DNA of 30,373 nucleotides. Source: a virus. The position numbers and the translations under genes were made by a program. Each line of letters opens with the position of its first letter. Position 1 is the first letter of the stretch. The stretch lies in the IMG/VR virus record IMGVR_UViG_3300007072_000002, positions 1 through 30,373 of that record; one strand, written 5' to 3'. Below are positions 2,198-12,813 of the stretch, one piece after another. The notes beneath the pieces were generated by a model that was given only the letters and a program-made list of their open reading frames with translations, was not told the origin of the DNA and made no database searches.

Positions 2198-3079
2198 TCA
2201 ACATTTTATTTGCTCTCGTAAGATCGCAATTGCATCATCGTTAGACATACTGTGCAATCTGGCAAATAAATTGATCACATCCAGCGGCTTGGGCGTGCAG
2301 CCGGCAAAACAACCGCAAATCTGGCGCTGAGTGTCGATCCAAAAACTGGGATGCCTGTCATCATGCAACGGACACGTTGTCAATAGCCAGTGGTCACCAG
2401 TGGCAATCGTATTGCCAAAAAAGCTCTCGATTGATAAACTTGCCCGGATCTTGTCGATAACACCAGTACCGGGCGGAGCGCTGCGCGGCAACATAGCCAG
2501 GAGCCACGGGTCATCAACAGACCGGGCAACAACCGGGTTAACAACTCCCGCCGGCAAATCCTGATCTGCCAGCACAGCCGCCGGCAACACATCGGAAAGA
2601 TTAGCGACCAAAGGGAAGTTAAAATGCTCAGTAAGGGGGGTATAGACAGCCCCGCTCGGGTGGATCGACCCTGCGCCGATCACATAACCCCCGCGGCACT
2701 TGATATCAATCTTACCGACGCGCCGGGTACGCTCGGGCTTGGGAAGACGAATATAAACATGTACACCCCGGGAAGTTACCACTTTATAAGCCATCCAGCT
2801 GACCCACTCCGGCGGTCCGGGTTGGCTTCTTGCCCACAACAACCATTTAGAGTAATCACTCATATCGTCAAAATCTAAGACGGTTAATCCTTGCCAACCG
2901 GTTATAATCCCTATATTGCGTGGCTTCGCGAACCACCACCGCAATTCTTGCTCAGTAGGGAGTTGGGATTGATATTGCTGCCATCGCAAGAGCGGTCGCT
3001 TGTCACGGTATTTCACCGGGATTACTGCGATCCCCCGGTGAAGAAAGCTTAGTGCAAGGTTTATTGCGGAATTGGTCAT
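2198..3079 (-). CDS. Bifunctional primase-polymerase (AEP/prim-pol) with C-terminal CHC2-like zinc finger
   Basis: Makes primers and probably short DNA strands at the phage origin. The archaeo-eukaryotic primase domain spans about residues 5-170: GIAVIPVKYRDKRPLLRW at 16-33, the metal-binding pair in VLDFDD (Asp69, Asp71), SRGVHVY (103-109), and GGYVIGAGSIHPSG (130-143). A second module at 225-285 has TTCPLHDDRHPSF (Cys236, His239) and CGCFAGC (Cys255, Cys257, Cys261), matching the DnaG/CHC2-type zinc finger. At 293 residues it is compact. It lies just beyond the palindrome-rich region 3098-3190, opposite the VirE-type ATPase, so the two probably form the replisome core. Its ribosome-binding site is weak (AGAG). 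Confidence 0.9.
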   Translation of the reverse strand: MTNSAINLALSFLHRGIAVIPVKYRDKRPLLRWQQYQSQLPTEQELRWWFAKPRNIGIITGWQGLTVLDFDDMSDYSKWLLWARSQPGPPEWVSWMAYKVVTSRGVHVYIRLPKPERTRRVGKIDIKCRGGYVIGAGSIHPSGAVYTPLTEHFNFPLVANLSDVLPAAVLADQDLPAGVVNPVVARSVDDPWLLAMLPRSAPPGTGVIDKIRASLSIESFFGNTIATGDHWLLTTCPLHDDRHPSFWIDTQRQICGCFAGCTPKPLDVINLFARLHSMSNDDAIAILREQIKC

Positions 3080-3192: not shown

Positions 3193-4650
3193 TCATGGCC
3201 CTTTCAATCGTATTCCTGCATAGCCGCGCAGCAAATTCCTTCCGGTTCTAGCAACAAACGGCTTCCCCAGTCCCAACTTAGTCAGCGCTGCTGCCAATTT
3301 GCGCGTATCCAGGTCGAATCCGGTTAGCCCAGCGTTTTTCAGCTCCGCCAAAATATCGAGCGTCGCCATCCACCACTGGTTATTGCCGGGGTCGATCTCA
3401 AATAAACGCTTGATAGTTTCCTCCACCACGTCTACAATCTGATATTGTTGGTTGATTTCCTCCGCCTGGTCCCACTCGTGGGGTGTCAGCTCCCAGGGCT
3501 CGCCGCTTAAATACAGATCGAACGCTTGCGCCCAAACTTGGTCAACATCTATCCGAGTGTAAGACCAGTCGATATTCTCCAGGTGCACCACCATGAAACG
3601 CCGGTTGCCAGTTGGATCGGATAGTAAACCCCCCTCGTTGTTCGCCGTGCCGATGAAGCTAGTGATCACCTGCCCGATCAGATCAAATTTCGCGTACGGC
3701 TTTCGGTCTCTCACGGTCTGTGTGGTCAAAAACGCTTTCAGCGCTTCCCGGTCTGCCCGCCGGGTTGTAGAGCCAAACTCGTTCACTTCCCAGATCCACG
3801 TCCATAGGCGTCTTAATCTACAATCCTTGTCATCTGGCGTGATTGCTCCCTCATGGTAGTACTCCGGCATCGGGCTCGCCAGCCACTTCACAAAATGGCT
3901 CTTGCCGATGCGCTGCCTGCCATCCAGAACTAATACTCTATTTTGTTCACCCGCCATCACCCGCGCTACCGCCCCCACCAGCCAGCGCCGCATCCAGGTT
4001 GCAAAGACGTTGTGCTCATCCCAAAAACAAGCGCATAAATTCCCGATTGGGTCGCCACCGTTAAATTTCAAGCCTGTCAAATAGTCCCGAATCGGATGAT
4101 AACGGTGCAACCAAGCGGCGCCGGTGTAGGCGTCCTCCGCCACACCTACTTCCCACACCCCCACGTCGCGCAATTTGCCTCGGATGATCTTTGCCAGACC
4201 ATCACTCACCGGCACGCCGTTTGCCTCGATCTCGTGGGTGCATAAGTTGTATTTGAATTCATATCCTAATGACTTCAGCACCTGCATATACTGAGCAGTC
4301 TTGCGTTTCTTTCCCGGGCTGGCGGTTTGCAGCCATTGCCGCAATTCAGCTGCCCGGGTGGTAATTGCCCCCAGCACAGCTGCCTGCGCCGCCGGCGGCA
4401 GGTTCTCGATGCTGAGAGCGATAGCATCTTGCACGTTGCCGCCAATTTGGATAATCTGCTCGTGCATGCTCCGCCATGGTTCTGCCCTCGGCGGCAACAA
4501 ATTTGGCGGCTCGCCGCTCGCCAGGCAACGTGCAATTTGCTCCAGCCCATCGATAAATTCCTGCTCTGGCTCATTGGCGTAATATTGTTCCAGGATCTGG
4601 GCGTCGCCCGTATTAATCCCGGCATTGAGCAGGGTGCGTAAGTTCGCCAT
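3193..4650 (-). CDS. VirE-family (SF3-like) P-loop ATPase, putative replicative helicase
   Basis: A 485-residue protein of the virulence-associated E (VirE) family, SF3-like helicases common beside prim-pols in phages and integrative elements. The C-terminal half carries the ATPase: Walker A GRQRIGKS (244-251) after VLVLD, an acidic Walker B-like WIWEVNEF (Glu288, Glu291), and downstream GTANN and TGNRRF (near residue 350). The N-terminal 200 residues are helical and unassigned. It probably loads on the adjacent region 3098-3190 and unwinds DNA for the prim-pol. The start is seven bases after the VWA stop; no clear ribosome-binding site is seen, so coupling is likely. Confidence 0.85.
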   Translation of the reverse strand: MANLRTLLNAGINTGDAQILEQYYANEPEQEFIDGLEQIARCLASGEPPNLLPPRAEPWRSMHEQIIQIGGNVQDAIALSIENLPPAAQAAVLGAITTRAAELRQWLQTASPGKKRKTAQYMQVLKSLGYEFKYNLCTHEIEANGVPVSDGLAKIIRGKLRDVGVWEVGVAEDAYTGAAWLHRYHPIRDYLTGLKFNGGDPIGNLCACFWDEHNVFATWMRRWLVGAVARVMAGEQNRVLVLDGRQRIGKSHFVKWLASPMPEYYHEGAITPDDKDCRLRRLWTWIWEVNEFGSTTRRADREALKAFLTTQTVRDRKPYAKFDLIGQVITSFIGTANNEGGLLSDPTGNRRFMVVHLENIDWSYTRIDVDQVWAQAFDLYLSGEPWELTPHEWDQAEEINQQYQIVDVVEETIKRLFEIDPGNNQWWMATLDILAELKNAGLTGFDLDTRKLAAALTKLGLGKPFVARTGRNLLRGYAGIRLKGP

Positions 4651-4657
4651 TTAGAGT

Positions 4658-5218
4658 TTATGCGTTCAGTAAAAGCTGCTTGGCTTTATCCAGTAGATTT
4701 GTTGCCCGATCTGCCGTCACAATCGCCCCGCCGGCTGCTTTTGCCAGCCGGGCCAGGAATTCGCGGCCGTGGGGTCTATCTTCCGGACCGACAAAAATCA
4801 CATGAATCGTATTTTTGTATTGAACAGCGATCCCTAACGCATCCGACTCGCTATTTGGCTCGCCATCGGAGATGACAATGAATTTCATCCCTGGCACGTC
4901 GGCGATCTTGGCAAATCTAAGCGCCCCGGCTAAATCAGTACCGCCGCCTAAGTATTGCGGTTTTCCGTTTGGGCAGAAGATGGTTGTATCTGAGAAGGCT
5001 AAAACCGCAATTTTCCCTGGCATGTTCTGTTGTAAGCTCGCTAGCTCCTCGCACGCCACACTATAGCGGGAACGCCCGTTGCGGGAATCTTCTGCCGCCA
5101 TGCTGCCGCTCGTGTCAACGATGACGATTACATCGCAGGACAGGAATGTTTCCGCGATGCTCTTGCCCGTGTTTTGGGCAATTGATCCAAGTGATCCGGG
5201 GATGATTGCATTGTTCAT
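4658..5218 (-). CDS. von Willebrand factor A (VWA) domain protein with complete MIDAS
   Basis: A 186-residue, single-domain VWA protein. The metal-ion-dependent adhesion site is complete: DTSGS (Asp35, Ser37, Ser39), GGGTDL (Thr94) and VISDGEP (Asp118). There is no signal peptide or membrane segment, so it should act in the cytoplasm through Mg-dependent partner binding. Intracellular VWA proteins usually assist AAA+ or other ATPase complexes; here the closest ATPase is the VirE-type protein directly downstream. The start at 5218 is set by the ATGA overlap with the zinc-ribbon gene, giving MNNAIIPG; a longer frame is an artefact. Its partner is unknown. Confidence 0.87.
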   Translation of the reverse strand: MNNAIIPGSLGSIAQNTGKSIAETFLSCDVIVIVDTSGSMAAEDSRNGRSRYSVACEELASLQQNMPGKIAVLAFSDTTIFCPNGKPQYLGGGTDLAGALRFAKIADVPGMKFIVISDGEPNSESDALGIAVQYKNTIHVIFVGPEDRPHGREFLARLAKAAGGAIVTADRATNLLDKAKQLLLNA

Positions 5219-5406
5219 CGCACACAGTATTCCTTCCTCGCGCCGCAATACACGCACACGTACACTTCCCATCGTCCGTACTCGATCAACTGGTGGGCTG
5301 TACTCTTGCCGCACCGGTCGCAATACATCCGGTAGTAGTCGATCTTGCGCTTCCTGGCTACTGCTTGTCTCACCATTTCGATGAATTGCACGCTTTCTTT
5401 GCTCAT
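5215..5406 (-). CDS. Small zinc-ribbon protein between J-domain and VWA genes
   Basis: A 63-residue protein with two CxxC knuckles, YCDRC (Cys29, Cys32) and CVYC (Cys51, Cys54), joined by about 18 residues, a typical zinc ribbon, after a basic helical N-terminus (MVRQAVARKRK). Both ends are ATGA overlaps: its start overlaps the J-domain gene stop and its stop overlaps the VWA start. GGAGAG lies six bases before ATG 5406, which decides for MSKES over the ATG at 5412. The coupling implies co-production with both neighbours. It could be a nucleic-acid-binding or J-protein-like cofactor. Confidence 0.75.
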   Translation of the reverse strand: MSKESVQFIEMVRQAVARKRKIDYYRMYCDRCGKSTAHQLIEYGRWEVYVCVYCGARKEYCVR

Positions 5407-6251
5407 ACCCATCTCTCCGTAAATGTGTCATTGCCTGGCTGCCAGCTTGTTACTAAGACCTGTCCCCGGCTATTAACGATATCCTCCCACGCCAGGATTT
5501 TTTGTGTGATAAAACGTCCTACCTGGTCAATTCCCTCCGCCATGATATACCCACAACGCAATGGCGAGCGATACCCGCCAGGAGTCAAGTCCATTGTTTG
5601 CCAATCAACTTTCCTCTTCATCGTGGCTTCCAGCGCCAACCCGGCATCGTAACGGGCGCGCTTGTCTGCGTTGCTCAGGATCTCGTAGGCTTCTTGGATA
5701 CGCATAAAGATCTCGACTGCGTTCTTTTCCTTGCAATAGTCGGGGTGCCATTGCTTCGCCATCCGGCGATAAGCGCGTTTGATCCCCTCGTCGTCGGCGT
5801 TCTGCGATGCGCATAACACCCCATATAACGATTGCGCCGGAGGTCTTTCGTTTTCTTGCACAACGCCATCGAACCACGATCGTAGCACTAGCTCCGGAAA
5901 GACAACTGACCATTCGCCGTTGCAATATCCGTAGGCGCTCCACCCGTCATCTCGCCATTTAGTAATGCCAATATAGCGCACGTCCAGTACACGAGTGTCA
6001 ACAACTGGGGTTGTCACAATTTGCGGCGCTAATATGGCAACCCCGATATACTCAGCCACCCAGTTTGTCAGCGTCTGCCCATGCCGGGGATGCACCAGCC
6101 ATCGCTTGCCATTCGGATCCCAGCGTCGTTCGGCTTGCGGCAGCGCTTTGATTTTCGCCGTCAAGCTTGGCTCATAGCTGCATGTCAGCGCCAGGGTGCC
6201 ATTTTCGATAGTCAGCCGCGCGAATGGCGTGTGCTTGCTGTACCTAGTCAT
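5403..6251 (-). CDS. HARP-like domain fused to a DnaJ (J) domain
   Basis: A 282-residue protein. Residues 10-70 (Y.P.L....K.LP...RWDP..KRWLV) resemble the HARP-type domain found ahead of SNF2 helicases and in phage proteins that bind forked or single-stranded DNA. Residues 141-203 form a J domain with intact HPD (169-171), which in known proteins stimulates Hsp70 (DnaK) ATPase. The C-terminal 70 residues (with LRCGYI, ILAWEDIVN) are unassigned. There is no helicase motor, so this is not a SNF2 enzyme. I infer that it brings the host DnaK to a DNA complex. Start 6251 has GAGG upstream and overlaps the exonuclease stop by 8 bases; the longer frame to 6353 lies inside that gene. Confidence 0.8.
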   Translation of the reverse strand: MTRYSKHTPFARLTIENGTLALTCSYEPSLTAKIKALPQAERRWDPNGKRWLVHPRHGQTLTNWVAEYIGVAILAPQIVTTPVVDTRVLDVRYIGITKWRDDGWSAYGYCNGEWSVVFPELVLRSWFDGVVQENERPPAQSLYGVLCASQNADDEGIKRAYRRMAKQWHPDYCKEKNAVEIFMRIQEAYEILSNADKRARYDAGLALEATMKRKVDWQTMDLTPGGYRSPLRCGYIMAEGIDQVGRFITQKILAWEDIVNSRGQVLVTSWQPGNDTFTERWV

Positions 6252-7008
6252 ACTTACCTCTACACTGCCCCCAAAAATCACAATAAGCTGGGCTGCACTT
6301 CCAGGTTGTGGGATTCTCAGGATAGACATTTCTGGATATCGCTTCCCACACATGCCGGATCATCCCGAACAGCCACATCACCTGTCCTGGTGTATGCTTA
6401 TGCTCGAATATGTCTATCTTGGGCTGTTTTGTCTTCACAATCACATAATGCCTGAAAGTCCATTCGTGATTATGCTCACCTAACTGGTTTAGCGCGGCTA
6501 AGTAAAATAGCGGCTGCGTTTCGCCGGTCGCTCGGTCAGCAGACCACGACTTGGCGGATGTTTTGAAGTCCCCCGGCACACCCGCTAGGTCAATCATGTC
6601 AATATACCCAATCACCGGCACAGGCACCCCCGGCACGCGCAGCTCTACTTTGCGCTCGATCTCAGTTGCTTGTAATTCACTTAGGGCATCGCAGATCGCC
6701 CTGTCGCTCAGTATGCGAACGCCCTCGTTGAAATGTTGTTCCGGGGTGTCTGTGCCCCACACTATCTGCTCGCCCTCTAGAGCCTGGTTCCAGGCTCTTC
6801 CCCAAATACTGAGCAAATCCTCCTGAGTCATAATATTCTCTTCGATGGTCTGGTGCATTGCCTTGCCGAAAATCAGGTCGGGCGTTGAATAGGTCGGGAT
6901 TTTTTCCACATACTTAAAGCGCCAGCTCGCTGGGCATGTCAGATAAGTTGTTATGCTCGAGTAAGACAAATGCTCGATCAGTGATATGTTTGATTGAGTG
7001 GCGCTCAT
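6244..7008 (-). CDS. RecB/Cas4-like PD-(D/E)XK exonuclease with probable Fe-S cluster
   Basis: A 254-residue nuclease of the PD-(D/E)XK superfamily. The order of motifs is SYSSITTYLTCP (Cys25), GKAMHQ (His52), GYIDMID (Asp137), GDFKTS (Asp147, Lys149), a Q-motif ETQPLFYL (Gln165) and a cysteine trio CSPAYCDFWGQC (238, 243, 249). One N-terminal and three C-terminal cysteines match the four that hold an iron-sulfur cluster in AddB and Cas4. In phages such enzymes resect ends for strand annealing. It follows the Sak4-like ATPase gene directly (stop TGA one base before the ATG) and overlaps the next gene by 8 bases. Confidence 0.85.
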   Translation of the reverse strand: MSATQSNISLIEHLSYSSITTYLTCPASWRFKYVEKIPTYSTPDLIFGKAMHQTIEENIMTQEDLLSIWGRAWNQALEGEQIVWGTDTPEQHFNEGVRILSDRAICDALSELQATEIERKVELRVPGVPVPVIGYIDMIDLAGVPGDFKTSAKSWSADRATGETQPLFYLAALNQLGEHNHEWTFRHYVIVKTKQPKIDIFEHKHTPGQVMWLFGMIRHVWEAISRNVYPENPTTWKCSPAYCDFWGQCRGKYD

Positions 7009-7009
7009 A

Positions 7010-7879
7010 TCATATTCTTCTACTTTCTAACACGCTCAAGATCTGCAGTACTTCTTCGTCCGTCGCTGGGATCTTTCCCCCGTTTGCGTTCATGATCACC
7101 TCGGCGTCGTAGGACTCCAGCAGTATTGCCAGTAGGTCATGGTTAGTTTGTGTTTCTGGCTTTTGTACTGGAATTTCTGGTATGGACTCTGTTCCCGAAG
7201 TCAGCCATTCAATCACCGGCAGCATGAATTCCGGACCAGGCTTTTCGATCTTGAGATCGGCTACTGCTGGACAGCGGCTTTTAGAGACTGTCATAATGTG
7301 CGACCAGTCGATGTCACATACCAGGTCGAATTCGTACTCTACGCCGGGCCTCTGCACTGGCGCCATGCCCACCCGCCGTACCACGGTTTTGCCTTGCTCG
7401 TTGATTTCTTGAACATACTCCATCCGGCTGCGCATGGTAGTGATGACGTGGCATGGCGATTGCAGGATACTGTCCACCATACGGTTATGGATTGGAGTCA
7501 CCGTTCTCCATGCAGTGTAATTGTTGCCTGGCGCCCGGTCTTTGATCTCCAACGCCCCTCCAACGCCTTCCCATGCGTGCGAGAGCGAATCGATCACCAA
7601 TACCGCGTAACCCATACGTCCCGCCGCCAGCACTGCCTCGGTGTATCGCTCTGGTGAAAATGTGGTGAGCTCAAGTACATCAAATTCCCAGGGGATTCCA
7701 TCGACAATTTCCCCTGCATATTTAGATGCACTGCCTCTTTCTGTGTCGATCACGGCGATCCTGCCGCCGTTTACCAGCGCGTGGGCGAAGCGCAGCGCCG
7801 TATAGGTCTTTCCCGATCCCGCCGGTCCATCAATTGTCATTCGCAGCCGGCTCTGTCGTCGTGTAGCTTTTCTAAACAT
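7010..7879 (-). CDS. Sak4-like RecA-fold ATPase (AAA_24 type)
   Basis: A 289-residue ATPase with Walker A GPAGSGKT (18-25) and Walker B VLVID (93-97) in a RecA-type core up to about residue 220, followed by a variable tail. This matches the AAA_24/Sak4 group of single-strand annealing proteins used in phage recombination. It sits between an ERCC4 nuclease and a RecB-like exonuclease, which fits. The start at 7879 is preferred because AAGGAG lies at the right distance (six bases after GGAG), whereas ATG 7885 touches it. It overlaps the ERCC4 stop by 8 bases. Confidence 0.85.
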   Translation of the reverse strand: MFRKATRRQSRLRMTIDGPAGSGKTYTALRFAHALVNGGRIAVIDTERGSASKYAGEIVDGIPWEFDVLELTTFSPERYTEAVLAAGRMGYAVLVIDSLSHAWEGVGGALEIKDRAPGNNYTAWRTVTPIHNRMVDSILQSPCHVITTMRSRMEYVQEINEQGKTVVRRVGMAPVQRPGVEYEFDLVCDIDWSHIMTVSKSRCPAVADLKIEKPGPEFMLPVIEWLTSGTESIPEIPVQKPETQTNHDLLAILLESYDAEVIMNANGGKIPATDEEVLQILSVLESRRI

Positions 7880-8630
7880 TCTCATCTCCTTGTATGGCTA
7901 AAAACAATTCTCCGTTATCCTTGGCAAAGAGCTCCAGGCTCTCGCCGTCTTTCAAACCCAGTGCAGCTCGCACTTTGCGCCGGGTGGCGTTGCCCAACGG
8001 ACAACCGATATCCAGGTCGGTTATTCCAGATATAGCCACTCCCGCCCTTCCTCCCGCCCAAGCCAGTATCTCCATCGCTCGTTCCACGCCGATCCCGGGC
8101 AGCGCCGCCAGGATTGCCGCGCTCGGTCCCAAAACCGACGGTATCCGTGGTGGCAATAGCTTCATCTCGATCTCTCGCTTGCGGTATGCCAGGCGGATAA
8201 TGCAGGCTTCAAAGTCCTGGTCTCCCCCGCAAAATACTACGAATACCCCCATTTCTTGAATGCTCAGTAATGCTCCTTGCACTGCGTCCCAGTTCCAGCC
8301 AGTTTGCCGCTCGGTTATTGCCTTGCCGCCTGGTCCGCGGGAAATCTCTCCAGTGATGACCAAATATGGCCATGTAGTCAGCTTGCCGTTAACCTGCTCG
8401 TCTATCCTGGCGTGGCTGATAGCTGCCATCTGCAGAAATAGCCGTTCTTCTCGAAGCGAATTCAGCAGATCATCTGGCGTCTTGCGCTCGATCACCAGCA
8501 AGCAGCCGTCATCTGTCAGCGCATGCACGTCGCCGTAATCCAGCAATGTGATTGTTGTAGGTGCACCGCCGAACATTAACCTTTGCACCCAGTCTGGCTC
8601 GCGACTGTCAATCATCACTGCCTGGATCAT
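7872..8630 (-). CDS. ERCC4 (XPF/MUS81-type) structure-specific nuclease with HhH motif
   Basis: A 252-residue endonuclease. The ERCC4 catalytic signature is complete: DSREP (8-12), YGDV (Asp34), and VIERKTPDD (Glu48-Arg49-Lys50, then Asp53). A helix-hairpin-helix DNA-binding region follows near 168-190 (LAALPGIGVERAMEIL). XPF and MUS81 relatives cut branched DNA, so this enzyme could resolve flaps or recombination forks, or replace a RuvC-type resolvase, since no other resolvase is seen. GGAGG sits six bases before the ATG. It overlaps the small membrane-protein gene upstream by 23 bases. Confidence 0.9.
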   Translation of the reverse strand: MIQAVMIDSREPDWVQRLMFGGAPTTITLLDYGDVHALTDDGCLLVIERKTPDDLLNSLREERLFLQMAAISHARIDEQVNGKLTTWPYLVITGEISRGPGGKAITERQTGWNWDAVQGALLSIQEMGVFVVFCGGDQDFEACIIRLAYRKREIEMKLLPPRIPSVLGPSAAILAALPGIGVERAMEILAWAGGRAGVAISGITDLDIGCPLGNATRRKVRAALGLKDGESLELFAKDNGELFLAIQGDENV

Positions 8631-8803: not shown

Positions 8804-8855
8804 CCGCGCCGTTCGGGGGAAATCCCTGTAAGAGAGAGCGGCTAGAACGGCGCGG
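8804..8855. other. Long G/C-rich hairpin over the stop codon of the ssDNA-binding candidate
   Basis: CCGCGCCGTTC (8804-8814) and GAACGGCGCGG (8845-8855) form a perfect 11-bp stem; the distal arm includes the last codons of the upstream gene, whose stop is at 8842. The loop is 30 bases. With the hairpin at 8741-8774 it makes a pair of structures separating the highly translated upstream gene from the nuclease genes. Likely roles are 3'-end protection or partial attenuation. Confidence 0.6.
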
Positions 8856-9540
8856 TCATCTCGGTGATAAGCGCTACGGTTTCAGGCGAGTCAATCGTGA
8901 AATACTTCGCCAGTAGCTTCTGCTCGGCGATCATCGGTGCCAGCTTGGCGCGGATCTTCTCTAAATCTGTCTCGCCTCGGGCTGCGTTCTGAACATAAAA
9001 TCTCAAGAATTTGAACGCTGTCTCTTTCTCTTTGCCGTTATCACTGGATGGCGCAGATGACGTCGCCGGTGCATTGCCATTAAATGCCGCCAGACATTCT
9101 TCGCGCGTGTCGTAAATCGCCAAAAAACGCAGTGTAGTGGCGTTCTTGACTTCTCCGTTTTGATTGGTGTATGTCCTGCCGGTGGGCACAGTTTCCACCT
9201 TGGCGAACTTGCCGTTGATTTCTTGCAGCGTCATTACACCCAGATCGCGCAGGCTGGGTAGCACAATATCTTTCCACTCGCCGAACTCGGCGAGCATGCG
9301 GCGCTCAATCGGCTGTTCGATCTTGCTCTCTTCCAGCGGTGTAAGCAAGAGGTCGATTGCTGTGTAACGCCGCAGAGCGTTGCCTTTTTCATCCGTTTGG
9401 TTTGGGTCATATGGAACTTTGCCAAAACCCTTAACCAACGAACAAGCCCAGGCGTTCACGGAAATTTCTCCGTAATACTCAAAGGCTTGCTCCGGTGGGT
9501 TCATGGCAGCTTCAAATGGATCGTAAGGTTTGGTAGCCAT
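8842..9540 (-). CDS. Putative ssDNA-binding or recombination accessory protein
   Basis: A 232-residue protein, not recognised by motif. The N-terminal 150 residues look beta-rich and the segment 150-165 (APATSSAPSSDNGKEKE) is a flexible linker before a helical C-terminus (about 170-225) ending DSPETVALITEMTAPF. Position directly upstream of ERCC4, Sak4-like and RecB-like genes suggests a ssDNA-binding role; this is inference. It has a strong ribosome-binding site (GGAG nine bases before ATG), in a 28-base leader identical to that of the putative capsid decoration gene, which suggests abundant expression. Confidence 0.5.
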   Translation of the reverse strand: MATKPYDPFEAAMNPPEQAFEYYGEISVNAWACSLVKGFGKVPYDPNQTDEKGNALRRYTAIDLLLTPLEESKIEQPIERRMLAEFGEWKDIVLPSLRDLGVMTLQEINGKFAKVETVPTGRTYTNQNGEVKNATTLRFLAIYDTREECLAAFNGNAPATSSAPSSDNGKEKETAFKFLRFYVQNAARGETDLEKIRAKLAPMIAEQKLLAKYFTIDSPETVALITEMTAPF

Positions 9541-11705: not shown

Positions 11706-11778
11706 GCCCCCATCGTCTAGGGGACCAGGACGCAGCCCTTTCAAGGCTAAAACGAGGGTTCGAATCCCTCTGGGGGCA
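11706..11778 (+). tRNA. tRNA-Glu (anticodon UUC)
   Basis: A 73-base cloverleaf. The acceptor stem is GCCCCCA (11706-11712) with TGGGGGC (11771-11777) and discriminator A. The anticodon loop is CTTTCAA on a CAGCC/GGCTA stem with one C/A mismatch at its base, reading UUC (Glu). The T arm is GAGGG-TTCGAAT-CCCTC. CCA is not encoded. It is complete, so integration at the host tRNA-Glu would leave an intact gene at one end; it could also serve as a phage tRNA. No other tRNA is seen in the window. Confidence 0.93.
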
Positions 11779-11823
11779 CACGAGCATTGCATTCCACCTC
11801 TTTCAACATGGGATTGTAGTCTG

Positions 11824-11859: not shown

Positions 11860-12813
11860 ATGCTATTATCCGAAGCCCTGGACGGCTACTACCTTAGCCA
11901 CATTGCTGATGGCTATAGCCCACTGACCATGACAACATATCTATCAGCTCTGCGAATTCTGAGTGGCTTTCTACACGATCCCAATATATCAGAAATATCT
12001 GAAACAGACTTAAAACGCTTCTTCGGTCACCTGCGCACAAGCTATGCTCCGGAGCATTCTGATAGCGGTCAACTCTCCACGGCTTCCCTGCATCGCTATT
12101 GGAAGGCTATTCGATCTTTTTTCAAGTGGGCAGATGCCAGTTTTGGAGTTGGTCGTCCTGATGCTGCCTTCAAAATGCCTCGTTATGCAAACAAAGAAAT
12201 TATCCCCTATTCTGAAAACGACGTTCAAAGACTACTGACCGCTTGCCGGCAATCCCGTCCTATTGCAAAAGCAGGTAAGCGAGAATATCATTTCCGGCCT
12301 AATACTGCAGAACGAAATATAGCTATATTGCTTTTGTTCTTGGATACCGGCTTGCGCCCAGGAGAGCTTGCTAGGCTCAAAATCGGCGATATTGATTTAT
12401 CCAGCGGAGAAATTCAGGTCAAGCCCTACAGGAGTGGTAAAACTCGTCCCCGTATTGTGATTGCCTCAGCAAAAACCCGCAAAGCCATCTGGCGCTACCA
12501 GGCTACACGAGGAGAATGTGAAGTGAATCAGCCCGCTTTTTTGACCAATGATGGCTGTGAAATGACTCGTCATACCCTGGGCAGCCTGGTGGCTAATCTG
12601 GGGCGGCGCGCTGGCGTGCCCAATGCTAATCCATATCGTTTTCGTCACACATTTGCTATCGAATATCTTCGCAATGGCGGGGATGTCTTTACTCTCCAGC
12701 GTCTATTGGGTCATGCAACTCTGGAGATGTGCCGCGTCTATCTGCGCCTTGCCCAAACAGATGTGGCGACTGCCCACCGCCGCGCCTCGCCGGTAGACCG
12801 CTGGCGGGTGTGA
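11860..12813 (+). CDS. int: Tyrosine-recombinase integrase
   Basis: A 317-residue integrase. The SAM-like core-binding domain spans about 1-105 and the catalytic domain 115-310. Catalytic residues visible are Arg166 (DTGLRPGEL), Lys194 (RSGKTRPR), Arg262 in the HxxR box, His285 (LLGHATLE) and nucleophile Tyr294 (CRVYLRL). The first position of the HxxR box is Tyr259 (PYRFRH) instead of the usual His. GGAGG precedes the ATG. It should join attP in 11641-11858 with a host tRNA-Glu site. The stop abuts the stop of the convergent tail gene with no spacer. Confidence 0.93.
   Translation: MLLSEALDGYYLSHIADGYSPLTMTTYLSALRILSGFLHDPNISEISETDLKRFFGHLRTSYAPEHSDSGQLSTASLHRYWKAIRSFFKWADASFGVGRPDAAFKMPRYANKEIIPYSENDVQRLLTACRQSRPIAKAGKREYHFRPNTAERNIAILLLFLDTGLRPGELARLKIGDIDLSSGEIQVKPYRSGKTRPRIVIASAKTRKAIWRYQATRGECEVNQPAFLTNDGCEMTRHTLGSLVANLGRRAGVPNANPYRFRHTFAIEYLRNGGDVFTLQRLLGHATLEMCRVYLRLAQTDVATAHRRASPVDRWRV

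Follow-up and report, generated by a model that had tools for sequence, protein, structure and literature searches.

A J-domain protein and a VWA protein that co-occur in a phage replication/recombination module: a candidate two-part accessory co-chaperone

Genes for a J-domain protein, a small zinc-ribbon-like protein and a VWA protein follow one another within the replication/recombination operon of a virus, raising the question of whether they constitute a conserved unit and, if so, on what such a unit might act. The window analyzed here is the whole of a 30,373-base IMG/VR virus record, which carries capsid, portal, terminase and tail genes along with an integrase, and the relatives of this virus are proviruses of Anaerolineae (Chloroflexota). 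A tRNA-Glu (ttc) at 11706–11779, immediately upstream of the integrase gene (11860–12813), is a possible attachment site. The replication/recombination module comprises the following features.

2198–3079, minus strand: primase, a Prim-Pol domain fused to a CHC2-type zinc finger
3193–4650, minus strand: VapE-like helicase/ATPase (PF05272, E = 6e-40), directly downstream of the VWA gene
4658–5218, minus strand: VWA protein, 186 aa, with a complete MIDAS
4865–4867, 4937–4939 and 5102–5116, minus strand: MIDAS codons for D118, T94 and D35/S37/S39, respectively
5215–5406, minus strand: zinc-ribbon-like protein, 63 aa, CxxC...CxxC, optional
5403–6251, minus strand: J protein, 282 aa, with a HARP-like domain, a beta domain, a J domain and a C-terminal beta domain
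6244–7008, minus strand: PD-(D/E)XK nuclease (exonuclease/Cas4-like), upstream of the J gene
7010–7885, minus strand: Sak4-like AAA_24 recombinase
7872–8630, minus strand: ERCC4/XPF-type nuclease
8842–9540, minus strand: conserved first gene of the module

An earlier, sequence-only reading of the window described the three genes as joined by four-base ATGA overlaps, and these are present: the ATGA at 5406–5403 is common to the J and zinc-ribbon genes, and that at 5218–5215 to the zinc-ribbon and VWA genes. The span assigned to the trio, 5215–6251, covers the first two genes, but the VWA gene reaches 4658. The J gene start (ATG, 6251–6249) also overlaps the stop of the PD-(D/E)XK nuclease gene (6246–6244) by 8 nt (ATGACTAG), and a 7-nt gap separates the VWA stop (4658) from the helicase start (4650). 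Gene overlaps of this kind are frequent in phage operons and therefore, taken alone, show only that the three genes are probably co-translated. The adjacent ATPase, previously taken to be of the VirE type, is instead VapE-like by its PF05272 match. Beyond the helicase gene, the primase combines an archaeal-type Prim-Pol domain (5.8e-24) with a DnaG-type CHC2 zinc finger (3.8e-7) in a single protein.

The J domain of the 282-aa protein is recognized by PF00226 (E = 9.7e-21) at residues 142–202 (5646–5828, minus strand), with the HPD motif at residues 169–171 (5739–5747); H169 and D171 do not vary among 37 aligned J proteins, and the best J-domain match in the PDB has a Z score of 13.0 and an rmsd of 1.1 over 72 aligned residues. 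As a J-domain protein, the gene product is expected to recruit host DnaK. The HARP-like N-terminal domain (residues 10–72; 6036–6224, minus strand) has a predicted beta-beta-alpha-beta-beta-alpha arrangement. The Pfam HARP profile (PF07443) matches 9 of the 37 family members (best E = 1.5e-5) and falls below threshold on the window protein itself, and the N-terminal profile of the family has the HARP domain of SMARCAL1 (4o66) as its best PDB match (E = 0.0024). A HepA-related protein also appears at rank 49 in a search of a viral fold library, in a listing that does not give the aligned part. DnaJ is the sole Pfam domain of the window protein, in which no helicase motor is found, so that the proposed fusion of a fork-DNA-type domain to an intact J domain lacking a motor holds, with the HARP assignment made through the family and 4o66. 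By analogy with SMARCAL1 (PMC4035279), the domain suggests that the protein is directed to DNA forks or branched DNA.

In the structural model of the J protein, built from the alignment of 37 sequences (pLDDT 90, pTM 0.66, the latter leaving the domain orientation uncertain), the beta-beta-alpha-beta-beta-alpha N-terminus precedes a beta domain, which is followed by the J domain and then by another beta domain; this last domain carries a near-invariant PLRCG motif. In a fold search with the whole model, J domains filled the list of matches, leaving no assignment for the beta domains. The protein is unlike the canonical class A/B proteins DnaJ and CbpA in that its J domain is internal, with other domains on either side; Pfam gave no DnaJ C-terminal match and the NCBIfam DnaJ cut-offs were not reached. 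The HARP part is missing from the J proteins of four loci (L018, L025, L026 and L027); in the three that were checked, the sequence just upstream of the HARP-less J gene gave no HARP match either. A second, different J-domain protein is encoded in three loci (L039, 4145–4768; L046, 7342–8004; L067, 6616–7281); its gene adjoins the VWA or helicase gene in L039 and L046, overlapping the VWA start in L046, and is near the VWA gene in L067.

The third gene had been read as a VWA protein with a complete MIDAS, and it proves to be one (PF13519, E = 2.9e-6): the DxSxS-T-D residues D35, S37, S39, T94 and D118 are invariant in an alignment of 46 VWA proteins, and metal binding is predicted. The model (pLDDT 88) has the standard VWA fold, with the best VWA match in the PDB at Z 19.1 and rmsd 2.3 over 157 aligned residues, and the family shares a conserved N-terminal motif, GSLxxxA.....S(I/L)AExF. 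The 63-aa product of the middle gene contains C29xxC32...C51xxC54, and a CxxC...CxxC pattern is found also in the L018 relative; it reaches no zinc-ribbon family at its cut-off, the Pfam matches being weaker.

With the VWA profile, viral contigs yielded 59 loci and bacterial genomes, mostly of Anaerolineae, another 10; the J C-terminal profile identified 42 loci. One of these bacteria is a cultured isolate, Ornatilinea apprima, whose genome contains a provirus of this kind (L072) and encodes a full-length DnaK. The usual gene order is first gene, ERCC4 nuclease, RecT-like or Sak4-like recombinase, PD-(D/E)XK nuclease, J, variable genes, VWA, helicase and Prim-Pol, such that J typically closes the block that starts with the first gene, and VWA opens the helicase-primase block. 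After removal of redundancy at 90%, J was detected in 55 of the 66 VWA loci, and in each of the 11 others the sequence upstream is shorter than 6 kb. Where the sequence extends 7.5 kb or more upstream of VWA, which is so for 36 of the non-redundant loci, every locus has J, compared with 28 for ERCC4, 21 for the PD-(D/E)XK nuclease and 22 for the VapE profile.

These relatives do not retain the three genes as a cassette, as had been proposed, and we reject the trio as a conserved unit. The zinc-ribbon-like gene occurs in two genomes, the window and L018, and of the 55 loci with both J and VWA, about one in four has the two side by side: 14 are directly adjacent (the window being scored among them only through an extended VWA ORF call, as the zinc-ribbon gene intervenes), 23 lie within 1 kb, 14 are further apart, 2 are on opposite strands and 2 have the reversed order. 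The opposite-strand arrangements are those of L056 and L060, with L005 as a third case, and the reversed order is that of L075 and L076.

To avoid selection on J or VWA, the ERCC4 profile was used as the anchor, yielding 66 loci. Whole-record scans of 23 ERCC4-anchored records, most of them new to the survey, found both J and VWA in 12, neither in 10 and VWA only in one; of the 10 double absences, three records end shortly after ERCC4 and two belong to distant relatives. With the records in which ERCC4 lies at a contig end (G044, G036 and G047) and the distant ones (G052 and G056) left out, and G042/G043, identical in ERCC4, counted once, 52 informative lineages remain, of which 47 have both genes, four have neither and one has VWA alone. 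The double absences fall in separate places in the tree. All four lineages retain the first gene and ERCC4; in addition, G035 keeps RecT, the PD-(D/E)XK nuclease, VapE and Prim-Pol; G043, which also lacks the PD-(D/E)XK nuclease, keeps Sak4, VapE and Prim-Pol; G038 keeps Sak4, the PD-(D/E)XK nuclease and a Prim-Pol protein; and G034 keeps RecT, the PD-(D/E)XK nuclease and, next to another helicase-like ORF, a Prim-Pol protein. The cleaned 52-row tree requires five changes for J and four for VWA. An independent-pairs test on supported branches gives four pairs, three concordant and none opposite, which is suggestive of agreement and too few for significance. Separation of the two genes is seen in G040, where VWA is kept and J is missing, and in G010, a 30-kb record (L115, L171) with the block from the first gene through ERCC4, RecT and the PD-(D/E)XK nuclease to J, in which no VWA profile match was obtained in the record and no helicase or primase was found in the parts read ahead of the terminase genes.

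The real unit, then, is the J-VWA pair and not the three-gene set. Ordinary linkage would account for the pair if the J protein were a generic folding co-chaperone and the VWA protein an unrelated accessory, with the module inherited as a block. The distance correlation between J and VWA (r = 0.57) is not above that of other module pairs, coevolution beyond the module background was not found by this measure, and the two genes usually lie within 5 kb of each other, such that single exchange events could explain part of their joint absence. However, the pair is kept where the genes are on opposite strands or in reversed order, and both are missing where other module genes remain, which makes simple linkage quite improbable. 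The joint retention and loss of J and VWA points to an uncharacterized use of the host chaperone on viral DNA.

The same genomes bear on the proposal, made in the sequence-only reading, of a chaperone-assisted replisome loader. Its strict form holds that the VapE-type helicase is loaded or released at the phage origin only with J, VWA and DnaK, much as with P, DnaJ and DnaK in lambda; the helicase gene that directly follows VWA in many loci, including the window, would fit this. However, G035 and G042/G043 have VapE and Prim-Pol and neither J nor VWA, and the pair also stands beside unrelated helicases, with VapE, D5/DUF5906, Prim-Pol-D5 and AAA_25 types all represented, so a required loader is quite improbable. 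Because the double-absent phages keep recombinase, VapE and primase genes, the pair is accessory. What stands of the earlier proposal is the J-domain protein, the HARP-type domain, the MIDAS, the module location and the J-VWA association, and remodeling of the lambda kind is possible as an accessory function.

Our preferred reading of two genes with intact HPD and MIDAS motifs that share a module and are present or absent together, held with somewhat less than even confidence, is that J and VWA form a two-part accessory co-chaperone of the phage replication/recombination machinery. J-domain proteins localize and activate Hsp70 (PMC3486835), DnaB is released from lambda P by GrpE-DnaK-DnaJ, and lambda Red recombination with an electroporated oligonucleotide is reduced about 200-fold without dnaJ (PMC3686724). 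By this route, the HARP-like domain would bring the J protein to DNA forks or branched DNA, where the J domain would recruit and activate host DnaK, and the VWA protein would use its MIDAS to dock the client, a protein of replication or recombination. In the VWA protein NorD, activity depends on the MIDAS, which is inferred to bind the target and not the ATPase (PMC9976466). The client complex, such as a helicase-primase assembly that has stalled or one of the recombinase/ssDNA-protein type, could then be loosened or dismantled by DnaK, after which replication or recombination would proceed. J and VWA may be in contact or serve a single pathway; the zinc-ribbon protein is an optional neighbor. 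The more specific picture of a phage-made, DNA-structure-targeted Hsp70 remodeling unit, in which a HARP-J protein and a MIDAS adaptor direct host DnaK to phage forks or recombination intermediates, is tentative and rather doubtful.

An accessory pair is also what would be expected of host-directed functions. The J protein might capture or redirect host DnaK, altering the heat-shock state or shielding phage proteins from DnaK, with its place in the module reflecting early expression only. Phage RB43 offers a precedent in its functional J-domain protein Rki (gp057w), which is expressed early, acts on DnaK and stabilizes sigma32 (PMC3486835). Such a take-over would leave both the HARP-type DNA domain and the co-occurring VWA protein next to the helicase without a role, and we consider it unlikely. 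Alternatively, the pair could shield phage DNA intermediates from a host defense complex, or remodel that complex, as might suit accessory early genes that are jointly present or absent. A distant VWA relative in Oscillochloris sp. ZM17-4 (L077, 9959–10582; 39% identity) is encoded near a CHAT-nSTAND1-FGE protein, a domain set suggestive of a conflict system. PADLOC, however, gives no match for the J, zinc-ribbon, VWA or VapE proteins, and the pair holds its place in the replication module and not in a variable cargo region; counter-defense is quite improbable. Plasmids of Delftia and Xanthomonas also encode distant relatives of the VWA protein (about 32% identity), there among hypothetical genes that gave no Pfam match, and in Gordonia phages the VWA proteins have no annotated J protein encoded nearby.

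The individual elements, namely J proteins in phages, co-chaperones with a VWA domain and the HARP domain, are already known; in the open-access literature searched, we found no description of a HARP-J protein or of a J-VWA pair. Like Rki, the window J protein is phage-encoded, has an intact J domain and is predicted to act on host DnaK, whereas Rki affects sigma32 stability and the window protein has a HARP-type domain, a place in a recombination/replication operon and a co-occurring VWA partner. The proposed remodeling by DnaK resembles that of lambda P/DnaB by host DnaJ-DnaK-GrpE, chaperones that also support Red recombination (PMC3686724), but lambda relies on host DnaJ, whereas this phage brings its own J protein, one that is missing from some phages of the same group. 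SMARCAL1, an annealing helicase, has the HARP-type domain in common with the window protein but carries an SNF2 motor (PMC4035279), which the window protein lacks, its HARP domain being joined to a J domain. The MoxR-VWA pairs (NorQ/NorD, RavA/ViaA and the jumbo-phage MoxR-vWA) are alike in their intact MIDAS and in the VWA protein as proposed client dock, but employ MoxR (PMC9976466, PMC7824862), whereas the ATPase proposed for the window pair is host DnaK. Coupling of the MoxR type was considered and rejected: no MoxR ATPase was found among the module genes scanned, the neighboring ATPases are VapE-like and AAA_24/Sak4-like, and a VWA finger as in NorD is not evident in the predicted secondary structure.

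In lambda, Hsp70 chaperones act on replication complexes through host DnaJ; if the preferred co-chaperone reading is true, a phage-encoded, DNA-targeted J protein with a partner would mean that the chaperone step can be under phage control. The pair would then also be a separable tool for probing the role of DnaK at forks and during strand annealing, with the natural genomes that lack J and VWA as ready comparisons.

Two other components of the module merit mention. The first gene (8842–9540) has no Pfam or PHROG match, and several members of its family terminate in -PF, as does bacterial SSB, by analogy with which a single-strand-binding role is possible. The Sak4-like recombinases, with a Walker A motif, and the RecT-like ones, without it, have unrelated folds and carry a common C-terminal tail of about 40 residues (LxxLxxxYGAExIMxANxGxIPxT), represented by the last 45 residues of the window Sak4 (7013–7147); a tblastn search of the phages collection with the tail consensus gave no match. 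A docking site for J or VWA was considered for this tail and rejected, as the tail is present in G034 and G035, which have neither gene; because it persists in such genomes, the tail probably docks to another protein of the module.
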